NCBI RefSeq assembly: GCF_000011905.1
Contig: NC_002936.3
Span: 930,001-994,000 of the forward strand
DNA: 64,000 nt
Direction: 5' to 3'
Source of the DNA: Dehalococcoides mccartyi 195
GTDB lineage: Bacteria > Chloroflexota > Dehalococcoidia > Dehalococcoidales > Dehalococcoidaceae
Positions 8,234 to 36,975 of this stretch are shown piece after piece (position 1 is the stretch's first letter; each line of letters opens with the position of its first letter). The translations under genes and the position numbers were made by a program. Below the pieces are notes generated by a model. It made no database searches. It saw only the letters and a program-made list of their open reading frames with translations, and was not told the DNA's origin.

Positions 8234-8524
8234 AACTGAATATTCAAAGGCTGTGAACAAGACTAGTAATTTTCAAGCGAGGCTGAGAGAGCCGGGCAAG
8301 GTGTGAGCCGGTGCTGACGCAGAGGGTGAATGGACTTGGGAGCCGCAAACCGAACGGAGTTATCCAAGTAGGCCTTGCCGCAGGGGAAGCGTTAACGTAT
8401 CCTAAGGCATAAAGGGTTCGCCCCAAGTGCCTGTTAAAGATGGCCGGTAGCTTTAGGGTTACGGCTAATTAGGGTGGTACCGCGGAAGTGAACCTTCTGC
8501 CCCTTTCAGGGCAGAGGGTTTTTT
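8234..8524 (+). promoter_or_regulatory. T-box riboswitch, tryptophan specifier (UGG)
   Basis: The hallmark AGGGTGGTACCGCGG antiterminator sequence lies at 8471-8485, followed by a terminator hairpin (8493-8518) and a T-run. Stem I carries GTGAATGGACTTGGGAG, whose specifier codon TGG is at 8331-8333, in the usual GAA-NNN-AC context. It should read uncharged tRNA-Trp and allow transcription of the tryptophan synthase beta gene when tryptophan is short. T-boxes are classical in Firmicutes and also known in Chloroflexota and Actinobacteria. Confidence 0.93.
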
Positions 8525-31165: not shown

Positions 31166-31171
31166 TATAAT
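31166..31171 (+). promoter_or_regulatory. -10 element of the MBL nuclease gene
   Basis: A perfect TATAAT with no clear -35. It overlaps the in-frame ATG at 31170, so translation more likely starts at 31200. Confidence 0.55.
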
Positions 31172-31199
31172 GGGAAAAATTAAGTGGGAGCATATCTGG

Positions 31200-32606
31200 A
31201 TGAGTATAGAAATACAGTTTTTAGGGGCAGCCCGAAATGTTACCGGCTCAAGATACCTGATTAAAACAGACCATACCCAGTTGCTGGTGGATTGCGGGCT
31301 TTATCAGGAACGGCGGCTGCAAGACCGGAACTGGCAGCCTTTTGAGATACCCCCCCAAAGCTTAAGTGCTGTAATCATCAGCCATGCCCATATTGACCAC
31401 TGCGGGTTGCTGCCAAAGCTGGTAAAGGAAGGTTTTGCCGGGCCGGTTTTTGCAACAGAAGCCACCGCAGAAATTGCCCGTATCTCCCTGACAGATGCCG
31501 GTAAACTTCAGGAAGAAGATGCCGCTTTTAAAAAGAAACGCCATGAACGCGAAGGCCGAAAAACCAAGTATCCCGAAATACCCCTTTACACCGCCGAAGA
31601 CGCCAGAGCCGTATCTCCCCTTTTTAAAACAGTGGAATACAGCCGGGAAATAGCCGTAACAGAAGATATCACTGCCACATTTCATAATGCCGGGCATGTT
31701 TTCGGTTCGGCCAGCATAGAGCTGAAAATACAGGAAAACCACCGGCAGAAAGTGATAGTTTTTTCAGGTGATTTGGGAAACTGGGACAGACCGATTTTGA
31801 AAAACCCTGACCTTGTAAATCAGGCAGATTACGTGGTCATAGAGTCCACTTACGGAGACCGCACCCACCAGGACATAAATGAGGCTTCCCTGAAACTGGC
31901 CGAGATAATAAACCAGACTGTTAAACTGGGCGGGAATATCGTTATTCCCAGTTTCGCTCTGGAACGCACTCAGGACCTGCTGTTTTTCCTTAACCGCTTT
32001 ATGTCAGAGGGCAAAATACCCAGCTTGAAAGTTTTTGTAGACAGCCCCATGGCTATCAGCATTACTAAAATATTTAAAGAACACCCGGAACTGTATGACC
32101 GCGAAACCAGCGGCTGGGTGAACAACGGAAGCTCCCCGTTTGAATTTGAAGGTCTTCACTTTACCAACAAAGCGGCGGATTCTAAAGCCATTCTGGCTGA
32201 AAAAGACCCCTGCATAATTATAGCCGGTTCGGGTATGTGTACCGGCGGCAGGATAAAACACCATCTGGTAAATAACATTAGCCGCCCCGAATCAACTATC
32301 CTGTTTGTGGGCTTTCAGGCAACCGGGACTCTGGGCAGGCTGATAACTGACGGAGCAAAAGAAGTACGGATACTTGGCCAGCACTATCCGGTACAAGCCC
32401 GCATAGAGGAACTCAGGGCTTTTTCGGCACACGCAGATCAGCCTACCCTGCTGCGCTGGCTAAAGGGGTTTAAAAATAAACCTGAAATGGTATTTGTAAC
32501 CCATGGCGAGCCGGAAACAAGCGCCCGGTTTACAGAAACTATAAAAAATACTTTGGGCTGGCAGGCAAAAGCACCCGAATACCAAGAAAAATTTATTTTA
32601 GATTAA
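31200..32606 (+). CDS. Beta-CASP metallo-beta-lactamase RNase-like protein
   Basis: A 468-residue two-metal hydrolase. The metal site HAHIDH lies in IISHAHIDHCG, followed by NAGHVFGSAS and GDLGNWDRP; the beta-CASP insertion shows ESTYGDR and FALERTQDL, and a late motif reads FSAHADQPTL. This layout matches the YSH1/CPSF-related bacterial and archaeal nucleases, so RNA processing is the likely role. The start at 31200 is favoured by GGAG ten bases upstream and because the earlier ATG lies in the TATAAT. The gene stands alone. Confidence 0.9.
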   Translation: MSIEIQFLGAARNVTGSRYLIKTDHTQLLVDCGLYQERRLQDRNWQPFEIPPQSLSAVIISHAHIDHCGLLPKLVKEGFAGPVFATEATAEIARISLTDAGKLQEEDAAFKKKRHEREGRKTKYPEIPLYTAEDARAVSPLFKTVEYSREIAVTEDITATFHNAGHVFGSASIELKIQENHRQKVIVFSGDLGNWDRPILKNPDLVNQADYVVIESTYGDRTHQDINEASLKLAEIINQTVKLGGNIVIPSFALERTQDLLFFLNRFMSEGKIPSLKVFVDSPMAISITKIFKEHPELYDRETSGWVNNGSSPFEFEGLHFTNKAADSKAILAEKDPCIIIAGSGMCTGGRIKHHLVNNISRPESTILFVGFQATGTLGRLITDGAKEVRILGQHYPVQARIEELRAFSAHADQPTLLRWLKGFKNKPEMVFVTHGEPETSARFTETIKNTLGWQAKAPEYQEKFILD

Positions 32607-32610
32607 AGGC

Positions 32611-32635
32611 AAATAAAAAACCGCTCTGAGAGCGG
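32611..32635 (-). terminator. Terminator of the small membrane peptide unit
   Basis: The stem CCGCTC/GAGCGG (32621-32635) is followed on the minus strand by TTTTTTATTT. It lies 45 bases past the stop of the 28-residue peptide gene. On the plus strand the same hairpin lies just past the MBL gene but lacks a T-run. Confidence 0.7.
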
Positions 32636-32679
32636 CAAGCTTTATAAATATACCCGAACTTGGGGGGGTAGCCATAAAT

Positions 32680-32766
32680 CTAGGCTTTATTTTCTTCTGC
32701 CCCGCCCGGATTGCCAATGCTCAGTATAAGGGCTATTAAGATAAGCCACAAACCCAGCCCTGACAT
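32680..32766 (-). CDS. 28-aa single-pass membrane peptide
   Basis: A minus-strand frame of 28 codons (MSGLGLWLILIALILSIG then a polar tail GNPGGAEENKA). The first 18 residues form one hydrophobic helix; the tail is acidic. AGGGG lies six bases before the ATG. It is preceded within 25 bases by a compact pseudoknotted RNA and followed by an intrinsic terminator, forming an isolated transcription unit between convergent genes. The size resembles small regulatory membrane peptides such as KdpF-like subunits, but no partner operon is near, so I assign no function. Confidence 0.5.
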   Translation of the reverse strand: MSGLGLWLILIALILSIGNPGGAEENKA

Positions 32767-32788
32767 ATCAAACCCCTAAAAAAGTTTT

Positions 32789-32910
32789 GGCAGACCCTTC
32801 CGATAACCGATTACGCCTAGGGCTCAGCACACGGCAGGGGACCTGGATGAAATTTAAGCTTTAGCTGCCTCAAACTAAAGCACCCTAGTTTCCCCCGAAA
32901 GAGTCTGCCC
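32789..32910 (-). ncRNA. Candidate structured RNA, riboswitch-like leader
   Basis: Nested helices enclose about 120 bases. P1 pairs GGCAGAC (32789-32795) with GTCTGCC (32903-32909); P2 pairs CTAGGG (32817-32822) with CCCTAG (32883-32888); P3 pairs GCTTTAG (32858-32864) with CTAAAGC (32875-32881). The P3 loop holds CTGCC (32865-32869), which can pair with GGCAG at 32833-32837 to form a pseudoknot. The minus strand is favoured because a small frame with a ribosome site and a terminator follow. It matches no riboswitch consensus I can recall (TPP, cobalamin, SAM, glycine, ykkC, cyclic-di-GMP were considered). Confidence 0.45.
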
Positions 32911-32945
32911 GAAACTAATATAAACTATAAGCGCACTGATAGATA

Positions 32946-32961
32946 TACGTACGTTTACGTA
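32946..32961. promoter_or_regulatory. Paired TACGTA palindromes upstream of the structured RNA
   Basis: Two TACGTA palindromes (32946-32951 and 32956-32961) with start points ten bases apart, about one helical turn. They lie upstream of a TATATT (-10-like, minus strand, 32922-32917) whose predicted start coincides with the P1 helix. They may be a dimeric operator. Confidence 0.35.
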
Positions 32962-32974
32962 ATTACAGAATAAA

Positions 32975-33673
32975 TTATCCCGTAGTTTCCTCAGGCATAC
33001 TTTTTTCAGATACATCATACATATTTTCCGGGGGGATGATACCCCTTTGCAGGGCGTAACGTAAGAGCTGGGTCTGGTTACGCAAATCCAGTTTACGCAT
33101 CATATTAGCGCGGTGAACCTCTACGGTGCGGGGTGAGATAAACAGCCTCTCGGCTATTTCGGCACAGGTATGCCCCTGTGCTACCAGATGAAGCACTTCC
33201 CGTTCCCGTATGGTTAAAGTTTCATAAGGGTCTAGTGATGTAGCTTCGGCAGATTTTTCCATATAGGCTTCAATAGCTTTTTCAGACAAGGGGGAGCTAA
33301 GATACCTATGCCCCTGCACAGCTTCGCGGACAGACCTTACCAGTTCCTCTGAAGTGGAGTCCTTAAGTACATAAGCCCTTGCCCCGGCCCGTAAGGCTTC
33401 ATGGACATAGGCCTCATTGCCGTACATAGACAGGATAACCACCGCAGTTTTAGGTGAACGCTTGACCACCTGATACGTAACCTCAATACCGCTCATGCCG
33501 CCCATCATAAGGTCAGTTACCAGCACCCCCGGCTGCAGGCTTTCAACCAGATTTACCGCTTCAATACCATCTGAGGCTTCTCCCACAACCTCAAAATCAG
33601 CTTCCGCCTCAAGCAAAGCTTTCAGCCCGTGCCTCACAATCTGGTGGTCATCTGCCAGTACTATACTTATCAT
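32975..33673 (-). CDS. NarL/LuxR-type response regulator
   Basis: A 232-residue regulator with a receiver domain (acidic pair in LADDHQIVRHG, phospho-Asp in VLVTDLMMGGMSG, Lys in AYVLKDSTSEEL) and a C-terminal LuxR helix-turn-helix (LTIREREVLHLVAQGHTCAE, VEVHRANMMRKL). Its ATG overlaps the stop of the upstream 1101-residue kinase by four bases, so the two form a translationally coupled pair. Confidence 0.94.
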   Translation of the reverse strand: MISIVLADDHQIVRHGLKALLEAEADFEVVGEASDGIEAVNLVESLQPGVLVTDLMMGGMSGIEVTYQVVKRSPKTAVVILSMYGNEAYVHEALRAGARAYVLKDSTSEELVRSVREAVQGHRYLSSPLSEKAIEAYMEKSAEATSLDPYETLTIREREVLHLVAQGHTCAEIAERLFISPRTVEVHRANMMRKLDLRNQTQLLRYALQRGIIPPENMYDVSEKSMPEETTG

Positions 33674-36600
33674 GGTTCGCCTCCGTTAATCCTGTCCCGT
33701 TCTTCATTCAAAGGAAGTTCAACTATGATATGAGTTCCCTCACCCGGTTTGGATTCTATATCCAGCTTACCGCCGAGAAAACGCACCCGTTCCTTCATAC
33801 CTTTCAGCCCGCTGGACATACCTGTAGCCCGCTGGGCAGGGTTAAACCCCTTGCCCTTGTCCTGGATTACCAGCGCCAGCTGGTTTTTATCCGCCTTGGC
33901 CCGTACCAGCACATTATCAACCCCCGCATAGCGCACAACATTAGTCAGGGCTTCCTGAATAATACGGTATACAGCCGTACCCAGCTGGGGAGAAAACTTG
34001 CGTTTGAGACCGGCATGCTGGAAATTTACGTTTATTCCTGTTTGGCTGGTAAAGCGGTCAAAATACCAGAGCAAAGCCGGCAAAAGCCCCAGGTCATCTA
34101 ACATCCGCGGGCGCAAATCAAGTGACATATTTCTGACACTGCTGATAAGTTCGCTAACCAGCGGCTGGGCTTCAGCCAGCAGTTCTTCGGTCTTATCCGG
34201 CGGACTATCTTTTGCCTTGTCCAGCATAAGCTTCAAAACCGTAAGGGACTGCCCTATCTGATCGTGCAGTTCCCGGGCGATAATAGACCGCTCTTCTTCC
34301 TGCAGCTCAACCAGCCGCTGGGAAAGAGTATGCAGTTCGTATTCGGCAGCCTTGCGTTCGCTTATGTCACGTGAAACCCCAAGTATACCTAAAAAGTGGT
34401 GATTTTCATCATACAGGGGACGCATCAGTGTCTCGGTCAAGATTACTTTGCCGTCCTGGCGTTTTACATCCAGTTCCAGCGGGTTCACAATAAGCTCCGA
34501 ACCGCTTTTGCGTACCTGCTGGTACACATACAGCAGTTTCTCATAAGATTCGGGGGTGAATACCATGGAAATATGTTTGCCCAGTATATCTTCAGGATAA
34601 TAGTTGAGCAGGCGGATAGTAGACGGGGAAAGGTAACTGATATTCAAGTGCCCATCAATAGTCCAGACAAATGCCACCATATTATCAGCCAGCAGACGAT
34701 ACCGCCTTTCGCTGTCCCGCAGGGCTTCCTCGGCCATTTTATGCTCGGTAATATCCTGAATAGTTCCCAGCACCCTCTGCGGAACCCCGGTATCACTCAG
34801 GGTGATTTCCGCCAGTTCATGCACATACCGCAAGTGTCCGTCAGGGCGTATTATCCGGTGCTGGATATTTAGTCTTGAACCGGAAACTACCGCCTTTTGG
34901 GCCTCACTGCGCAGCATATCCCTATCCTCAGGGTGGACTATTTCCATAATCTGCTTAAAACCGGGAAGCCCGTCTTCAGAGCGTAACCCCAGTATATTGT
35001 AAACCTCGTCTGAAAGTATCATGCTATGCCCCAAAAGGTCATAATCCCAGTTGCCTATATGGGCAATCCTCTCCGCCTGCGCCAGTAAACCAGCCTGATA
35101 ACGCAAAATAATCCGCTGCATATGGCTGCGCTCGGTGACATCATGGAAAATAGTCAGTTTGGAAGTAGTGCCATCAGGATTTTTTATAGGCGTGGCCATA
35201 AGCTCATAATCACGCTGGTTATGGGAGGAATGCCAAGCCCACCGGACAGTCTGGCCGTTTAGCACCTCTTTACTTTTGCAATAGCTGCAAGGAATCTGGC
35301 GCTCATGAAAATAGTCGTAGCATTTCCTGCCGGATATAGGTCCGAACTGAGCCATAAGCGGCGGATTAATATACTCTATCTCATAATCAGCGTCTACAAT
35401 GTAAACACCGTCCTCCATAGCATCCAGTATCCCCCGCAGTTTATCCCTCTCCAGTTTCAGGGCAGCTTCAGCCTTTTTACGCTCGGTAATATCACGGGCT
35501 ACCGAAATAACCACAAACCGGTCTCCCAGTTCAAACCGCTGGATATTAAGTTCAACAGGTACAAATGTACCGTCACGGCGCAGATGCCGCTGCTCAAAGA
35601 TAGCCCGTTCTTCTTCATTCAGTTTCTTAACAGCTTCCGCCACCGATGCATCAAAAGCCGGGTCATCTATCTGGCTGGGAGACATACTAAGCAGTTCTTT
35701 ACGGCTATACCCAAGCCGCTTGCAAGCCACTTCGTTCACTTCAATAAAGTTACTTTTTTCACCATCCGGAGTTATGTAGTGAACAAACACCGCATCTCCG
35801 GAACTATTAAACAAAAAGCGGTAACGCTTTTCACTCTCCTCCAGCATCTGGCGGGTCCGGCTGCTCCGAAATGCGATAGCCGCCAAAGACCGAAATGACG
35901 AAGCCACCCGGATATCGGATACGTCAAACCCGCCGGGTTTATCAAAAAGAGCCAGCAGCCCCACACTCCGCCCGCCAAGACGCACCGGCGTAAAAAGGGC
36001 ATTTTTTAAATCCCGGCAACTGTCTTTGAATAACTCATTATCTTCATCCAGGGTTAAATCATTTTCCAGTACAGACTTCCCGCTTAAACTGGCCTGCAAA
36101 GCCAGACCTCTAAGCAGTATAGATGAAGGGAATTGAAAGTGCTTATTAGTGCTATCCGCATAAATAATACGGCAGACATCACCCTCTATTTGCCCTATAA
36201 AACCGCTCTGGCAGGAGGTGATTTTTTTGCAAGAAGAATAAATTGCAATAGCAGCTTCCTGAAGACCGGGGCGCTCCAGTATGGCACGTGATGCCTCCAG
36301 CAAAACCGCTGTTTCGTGGATACGCCGCCGGGTTTCCTCAAGCGAATTTTTCAGAGCTATTTCCATATGCTTACGGACAGTGGTTTCCAGCAGGGAAAAT
36401 ACCAGCCCCTGCACCCGCCCGTCAGAACTTTTGATTGGCACTAAACTCCAATCCCAGTATGTAATACCCCTCCACGGCTGGTCAGCATACTCAAAGGGTT
36501 TGTCATGGAATTCTACTGATTCGCCGGTTTCAACCGCTTTTCTAAAAATAGCTTCGTTTTCAGCATTGGGAAAGAGAACGAAATGATTGAAACCTATCAA

Positions 36601-36975
36601 TTCTTCTTCCGTATGCCCGCAATTTTTTACATAAGCCCGGTTAACTTTTATAAAATTAAAATCCCGATCCAAAAAAGCCAGCTGGATAGTGGTATTATCC
36701 ATGATAGATTGCAAAGCATAACTGTTAGACATCATTGCAAAGGCAAGCTCTTTATCCTCTAAAGCGGACTGACCGGGCAGCCTCTCTTGGGCTAAACTTA
36801 TATTTTTATATTTGCTTATGTCTGAAACAGTTTTGGAAACTTCTGAAGATGCAGGCAGAGGCTTACTTTCCGGAAAGACCGGAGATGCCGTAACTGAAAG
36901 TAACTGCTCATAACGGCACTGCAATTCCTCAAGTTCGGCTGCCAGCTGGGCTTTGGTCTTGCTAATCTTGGGCAT
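33670..36975 (-). CDS. Multi-PAS/GAF NarL-family sensor histidine kinase
   Basis: A large soluble kinase of 1101 residues without obvious transmembrane segments. After a short N-terminal coiled coil (KAQLAAELEELQC) it carries a PAS domain (about residues 95-210), a GAF-like domain (about 225-370), then about four more PAS domains (about 375-890; blocks such as FVVISVARDITERKKAE and FLGILGVSRDISERKAAE). The HisKA_3 dimerisation helix has the phospho-His in IIARELHDQIGQSL near residue 905, and the HATPase domain ends with GKGFNPAQR and GMKERVRFLGGKL. Multiple sensor domains suggest redox or small-ligand integration. Confidence 0.92.
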   Translation of the reverse strand: MPKISKTKAQLAAELEELQCRYEQLLSVTASPVFPESKPLPASSEVSKTVSDISKYKNISLAQERLPGQSALEDKELAFAMMSNSYALQSIMDNTTIQLAFLDRDFNFIKVNRAYVKNCGHTEEELIGFNHFVLFPNAENEAIFRKAVETGESVEFHDKPFEYADQPWRGITYWDWSLVPIKSSDGRVQGLVFSLLETTVRKHMEIALKNSLEETRRRIHETAVLLEASRAILERPGLQEAAIAIYSSCKKITSCQSGFIGQIEGDVCRIIYADSTNKHFQFPSSILLRGLALQASLSGKSVLENDLTLDEDNELFKDSCRDLKNALFTPVRLGGRSVGLLALFDKPGGFDVSDIRVASSFRSLAAIAFRSSRTRQMLEESEKRYRFLFNSSGDAVFVHYITPDGEKSNFIEVNEVACKRLGYSRKELLSMSPSQIDDPAFDASVAEAVKKLNEEERAIFEQRHLRRDGTFVPVELNIQRFELGDRFVVISVARDITERKKAEAALKLERDKLRGILDAMEDGVYIVDADYEIEYINPPLMAQFGPISGRKCYDYFHERQIPCSYCKSKEVLNGQTVRWAWHSSHNQRDYELMATPIKNPDGTTSKLTIFHDVTERSHMQRIILRYQAGLLAQAERIAHIGNWDYDLLGHSMILSDEVYNILGLRSEDGLPGFKQIMEIVHPEDRDMLRSEAQKAVVSGSRLNIQHRIIRPDGHLRYVHELAEITLSDTGVPQRVLGTIQDITEHKMAEEALRDSERRYRLLADNMVAFVWTIDGHLNISYLSPSTIRLLNYYPEDILGKHISMVFTPESYEKLLYVYQQVRKSGSELIVNPLELDVKRQDGKVILTETLMRPLYDENHHFLGILGVSRDISERKAAEYELHTLSQRLVELQEEERSIIARELHDQIGQSLTVLKLMLDKAKDSPPDKTEELLAEAQPLVSELISSVRNMSLDLRPRMLDDLGLLPALLWYFDRFTSQTGINVNFQHAGLKRKFSPQLGTAVYRIIQEALTNVVRYAGVDNVLVRAKADKNQLALVIQDKGKGFNPAQRATGMSSGLKGMKERVRFLGGKLDIESKPGEGTHIIVELPLNEERDRINGGEP

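Follow-up and report, generated by a model that had tools for sequence, protein, structure and literature searches.

What is encoded in the short interval between a two-component gene pair and a convergent gene of Dehalococcoides, and does it form a transcription unit of its own? The window, that is the whole stretch of DNA analysed (64,000 nucleotides), covers bases 930001-994000 of a 1,469,720-bp Dehalococcoides genome. The unit is flanked by a histidine kinase (33670-36975, minus strand) and a response regulator of the LuxR type (32975-33673, minus strand) on one side, and by the convergent gene of a beta-CASP metallo-beta-lactamase (31170-32606, plus strand) on the other. It comprises the following elements:

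32946-32962, minus strand: double TACGTA palindrome TTACGTAAACRTACGTA, likely the operator/promoter element of the unit
32788-32911, minus strand: structured RNA, whole element from P1 to P1 (covariance-model match of 149.5 bits, E 1e-30, the model having been built from the window copy itself)
32680-32766, minus strand: gene of a 28-aa membrane peptide (MSGLGLWLILIALILSIGNPGGAEENKA) with an ATG start and the ribosome site AGGGG at 32773-32777
32614-32636, minus strand: intrinsic terminator GCCGCTC TCA GAGCGGT, a 7-bp hairpin, followed by TTTTTT

The upstream TACGTA palindromes and the T-run terminator described in an earlier note on this DNA were both located, at 32946-32962 and 32636-32614 respectively, and a hairpin with T run is likewise present in the loci L066 and L067. 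The proposal of the same note that the unit is isolated and has dedicated transcription can be upheld only in part. The RNA unit begins 64 nt downstream of the regulator gene on the same strand, so transcription could read through from the kinase/regulator operon, and since the 64 nt upstream of the window RNA showed no sigma-70 consensus promoter, this source of transcript is still to be reckoned with. On the other hand, all three Dehalococcoides genomes have an exact TTACGTAAACRTACGTA at this locus, and elsewhere in these genomes a search allowing up to two mismatches gave a single near-match (two mismatches, in G002). A palindrome perfectly kept in three species and almost unique in each genome argues against pure read-through.

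The 28-aa frame is a genuine coding gene under purifying selection, with a dN/dS of 0.06-0.15 over 19 codons in the three Dehalococcoides species and an N-terminal hydrophobic helix kept in all of them, which bears out the earlier description of a small frame with an AGGGG ribosome site and one membrane helix.

In a DNA search the locus was found in two other Dehalococcoides species, together with a paralogous second copy of the RNA in each of the three genomes. The first covariance model, made from these six sequences, found copies in Dehalogenimonas-type genomes and in two further families (E 1e-17 to 1e-5), and a broader model built from relatives gave 70 copies in 27 of 393 Dehalococcoidia genomes. 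Among 301 Chloroflexota genomes sampled across the phylum, 10 had matches, all within the window's own order, and no genome outside Dehalococcoidia had one. When a degenerate pattern was searched for in about 85,000 species genomes, 35 stretches came back, essentially all labelled Dehalococcoidia or Chloroflexota. About 100 copies were located in total, with 2-6 per genome in many genomes. One record titled Deltaproteobacteria (L101) has an RNA sequence matching L137 (JAUVYB010000011.1; genome G272, from the window's own order); judging by the sequence, it is probably a mislabelled metagenome-assembled genome holding the same contig as G272. Another copy lies on a contig classed as viral (L103, IMGVR_UViG_3300033150_002262), and a viral origin of the RNA was rejected, this being the only predicted viral contig.

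The family forms a class of RNAs of about 95-135 nt, in which a long closing helix P1 encloses an inner helix P2 bearing a variable hairpin, and a hairpin P3 whose loop forms a pseudoknot with a strand just inside P2. In the window copy the parts are placed as follows:

32896-32909, minus strand: 5' strand of P1, pairing with 32789-32802
32789-32802, minus strand: 3' strand of P1, pairing with 32896-32909
32891-32895, minus strand: 5' strand of P2, GGGGA, pairing with 32837-32841
32837-32841, minus strand: 3' strand of P2, TCCCC, pairing with 32891-32895
32883-32888, minus strand: pseudoknot strand 1, CTAGGG, pairing with 32817-32822
32858-32881, minus strand: hairpin inside P2, GCTTTAG/CTAAAGC, 7 bp, of variable length and sequence across the family
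32806-32835, minus strand: P3 hairpin GCCG...CGGT (32835-32832 with 32809-32806), its loop carrying conserved GUG and GUAAU
32817-32822, minus strand: pseudoknot strand 2, CCCTAG, in the P3 loop, pairing with 32883-32888

The window sequence folds at -60.7 kcal/mol against -49.3 kcal/mol in dinucleotide shuffles; this z of -2.76 is modest alone, and the fold owes its certainty to comparative evidence. Covariation was tested on 71 distinct sequences and 34 proposed pairs against shuffles and slid-partner controls. With an alignment fitted to the non-pseudoknotted structure, so that the pair counts lean towards that part, 95.1% of cells were paired (76.8% in shuffles), the covariation score reached 0.519 (0.180 in shuffles, at most 0.132 in slid controls), and compensatory changes on both sides were seen at 25 of the 34 pairs. 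Sliding the pair partners thus destroys the signal, and the covariation that the earlier note had named as a check on its helices is present. All 14 pairs of P1 show compensatory changes across the family, with 95% of cells paired, as do all six counted pairs of the inner hairpin (helices 4 and 5 of the covariation count). P2 alone is weakly informative because its GGGG/CCCC is nearly invariant, CGGG/CCCG being found in L042 and L138. P3 is likewise nearly invariant in the 79-copy anchor set; most copies have CCCG/CGGG, and the variants CCAG/CTGG in L138 and CCGG/CCGG in L145 came from later copies.

The 6-bp pseudoknot, which lies outside the covariance model, has 99.1% of cells paired and compensatory changes at four of its six pairs. 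An independent count based on sequence anchors found it complementary at all six positions in 76 of 79 copies, in the forms CCAGGG/CCCTGG, CTGAGG/CCTCAG, CTAGGG/CCCTAG (that of the window), TCAGGG/CCCTGA, TCATGG/CCATGA and CCAAGG/CCTTGG. Unpaired bases are also conserved: AAA after P2, GUG and GUAAU in P3, and a UUAA linker. The three helices of 7, 6 and 7 bp first proposed for the window are present as the outer helix, the inner helix and the 7-bp hairpin, but the outer one is longer, about 14 bp, and the fourth helix, GCCG/CGGT, had been missed. The pseudoknot first proposed, GGCAG/CTGCC, had to be abandoned, as two of its five pairs break in the paralogue and none covaries; the covarying one is CTAGGG/CCCTAG. 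A pairing GGGTG/CATCC in the Dehalococcoides copies was discarded as well, for it shares bases with the pseudoknot strand and most other copies lack it.

The position of the RNA relative to genes was examined in the 88 copies with enough flanking sequence, by looking for a frame of at least 80 aa, preceded by a Shine-Dalgarno sequence and starting no more than 250 nt downstream on the RNA strand, with a mirror-image control. Such a frame follows 41 of the 88 copies and 1 of 88 in the control, and its start codon often lies 25-45 nt after P1. The copies thus look like leaders on the coding strand; exceptions include the second Dehalococcoides copy, and several other copies also have no close gene on the same strand.

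The genes led by the RNA differ between lineages. In Dehalogenimonas, NrdJ, radical-SAM or RdhA genes of rdhA operons lie behind nearly all of the 27 copies. One operon type begins with the AdoCbl-dependent ribonucleotide reductase NrdJ (TIGR02504), often followed by a short protein and RdhA; in others a radical-SAM protein, a B12-binding radical-SAM protein and RdhA follow, or RdhA directly. Within one NrdJ clade, taken at 70% identity or more, 14 of the 18 genes carry the RNA. The NrdJ-like genes found in operons with reductive dehalogenase genes in this genus are short (L049, L050, L051, L053, L054, L130, L132 and others). Radical-SAM activase-like and B12-binding radical-SAM genes, followed by rdhA, stand behind the RNA at L049:2144-4443, L052, L055, L059 and L062; the two are possibly a maturation pair. 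In two other Dehalococcoidales families (f2/f16; genomes G011, G288, G025, G294 and G353), 9 of 14 copies are followed by molybdenum-hydroxylase operons or modA/modB, these five genomes having 5-9 molybdenum-hydroxylase matches each; aldehyde:ferredoxin oxidoreductase is also among the RNA-led targets. Elsewhere the RNA precedes family-5 peptide-binding proteins, TRAP and TAXI binding proteins, CoA transferase, MarR regulators and others, and in this transporter-associated group some copies closely follow a gene and have no further gene on their strand behind them. Tandem copies stand before opp operons (L042, L092), an arrangement that may be likened to tandem riboswitches. Other tiny membrane-peptide frames with ribosome sites lie directly behind the RNA in L043 (after 17739, 44 aa) and L085 (after 5372, 40 aa), and their sequences are unrelated to the 28-aa peptide of the window.

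Both Dehalococcoides copies are present in the three species, the window copy with the same neighbours. The second one is located as follows:

G000:C1:1198772-1198897 (about 3998-4123 of L063), minus strand: paralogous copy, a promoter-RNA-terminator unit

It has a sigma-70-like promoter, TTGCCA-17-CATAAT, and a terminator, with no gene between the RNA and the terminator, and its downstream neighbour differs between species. It most plausibly represents a form of the RNA that acts in trans or as a decoy. The promoter spacer holds the palindrome ACAGAATAATTCTGT in two of the three species.

Is such an RNA already known? Rfam 15 (4227 families) gave no gathering match at the window locus, and when about 30 copies, among them that of the window and its paralogue, were scanned permissively (E up to 1 or 10), no credible match over the element appeared; the Rfam hit that would have refuted the earlier note was thus not found. 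The only Rfam T-box in the window is a leader at 8244-8507 (RF00230, 94 bits, just above the gathering score); it is unrelated, and a T-box identity of the RNA was dismissed. The EAR and put antiterminator RNAs are structured leaders of roughly 100 nt in front of operons; the present RNA differs in having no sequence match to them in the Rfam scans and no enrichment of terminators downstream. The downstream-peptide (glutamine-II) motif is a pseudoknotted RNA before a very short frame, but it has another sequence and structure and belongs to another phylum, and the present RNA has no Rfam match. The Moco/Tuco riboswitch candidate (RF01055) shares modA, modB, molybdenum hydroxylases and aldehyde:ferredoxin oxidoreductase as targets, but permissive scans (E up to 1) of the copies beside modA, modB and molybdenum hydroxylases gave no match to it, and in other lineages the targets of the present RNA are dehalogenases, NrdJ and transporters. 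The regulon of Mo/W type is seen in f2/f16 (the 9 of 14 copies mentioned above) and not in Dehalogenimonas or the transporter-associated lineages; a Moco riboswitch has been separately reported upstream of moaA in Dehalogenimonas (PMC13390414). The closest published case is the rdhA motif (WRC-34-1; Narunsky et al. 2024, PMC11109978), described there as a candidate structured RNA with 18 representatives, mostly from Dehalococcoides, immediately upstream of rdhA. The present RNA resembles it in leading rdhA operons in Dehalogenimonas, and differs in that both its Dehalococcoides copies lie more than 100 kb from any rdhA listed in those genomes; the comparison draws on the published description, and the two are treated as distinct by position only. 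No description of the RNA was found in the literature, a 2017 survey of 224 candidate RNAs being covered only through the lack of an Rfam match. These sequences form a genuine RNA family, undescribed as far as searched, whose novelty is that of an orphan class of regulatory RNA.

The window RNA belongs to a new class of structured RNAs restricted to Dehalococcoidia, and it probably serves as a 5' leader that regulates in cis in the manner of a riboswitch. Such a role is favoured by the conserved placement ahead of start codons, by unpaired bases that stay invariant around the covarying pseudoknot and by the tandem copies. The unpaired bases around the pseudoknot would form a putative site where a small molecule or a protein binds, and the state of this site would set the expression of the gene or genes just downstream, in the window the 28-aa membrane peptide. 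Control would probably be exerted at translation initiation: terminators were counted downstream of 6 of 98 copies and upstream of 11 of 98, with no downstream enrichment and no consistent expression platform found, and these few terminators point to translation initiation, or another step, rather than to attenuation, which was rejected as a general mechanism. An anti-Shine-Dalgarno role of the conserved CCCCUCCCG block is not supported either, as L138 and L145 lose CCUCCC yet keep the helices. The earlier conclusion that a small membrane peptide is controlled by a new cis-regulatory RNA is likely for the window copy, where Rfam has no match, the helices covary and the peptide is under purifying selection, but it defines the target too narrowly. 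The peptide is not the defining partner, because the RNA precedes other genes in other Dehalococcoidia and the second Dehalococcoides copy is geneless.

Several findings count against a riboswitch-like leader: its targets share no single pathway, unlike those of most metabolite riboswitches, the length and GC content of P1 are higher than in a typical switching helix, no consistent expression platform was seen, and the geneless copy and several others lack a close gene on their strand. Target diversity, the long P1 and the geneless copy would also be compatible with a protein partner for which a decoy RNA exists. The RNA would then be a recognition element for a global regulator, a processive antiterminator of the EAR/put kind or an RNA-binding repressor, and the geneless copy a sponge or an independent sRNA, in the manner in which EutX, CrcZ and RsmZ act for their proteins. 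This would suit the presence of one conserved RNA on heterogeneous catabolic and respiratory genes, the stand-alone copy, with its promoter-like sequence and terminator, that is kept in three species, and a P1 that is near-constant within one genome while the inner hairpins differ completely (L091/L100), as if it were read in trans. It is nevertheless rather unlikely: there is no candidate protein, the conserved internal loops look pocket-like, and behind several copies there is neither a long operon nor a terminator on which antitermination could act.

Occurrence in several copies per genome, some of them tandemly arranged or close to a transposase or resolvase (L072, L079) and one on the predicted viral contig, could also be expected of a structured mobile repeat spread among intergenic sites without regulatory role. 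Such a repeat is improbable in view of the strong strand bias towards downstream genes (41 against 1 of 88), inconsistent orientation not being found, the repeated association with the same operon types, the conserved pseudoknot and the persistence of both Dehalococcoides copies in three species, the window copy among the same neighbours. Moreover, the copies of one genome are not recent duplicates, since their inner hairpins are completely different. A compact pseudoknotted fold with invariant unpaired bases, found both before and after genes, would fit a new self-cleaving ribozyme, but the mostly leader-like position, the long intact P1 and the lack of resemblance to any known ribozyme family in Rfam make this highly improbable.

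The leader reading may be carried further, though only tentatively and with more doubt than confidence: the RNA could be a metabolite riboswitch of a new class confined to Dehalococcoidia. It would respond to a cofactor or to a signal of the energy state and thereby gate the operons of organohalide respiration, of molybdenum hydroxylases and of substrate uptake, and in Dehalococcoides it would have been reduced to a membrane-peptide gene and a free-standing decoy. Dehalococcoidia perform reductive dechlorination of major groundwater pollutants, and to our knowledge little has been learnt of how their dehalogenase operons are controlled, apart from two-component and MarR regulators. Many rdhA operons of Dehalogenimonas have a structured RNA in front of them, and a 2026 survey of rdhA regulation in this genus mentions no leader RNA (PMC13390414). 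A complex, covarying and clade-restricted RNA is open to direct tests and offers a way into the regulation of organisms with poor genetic tools.
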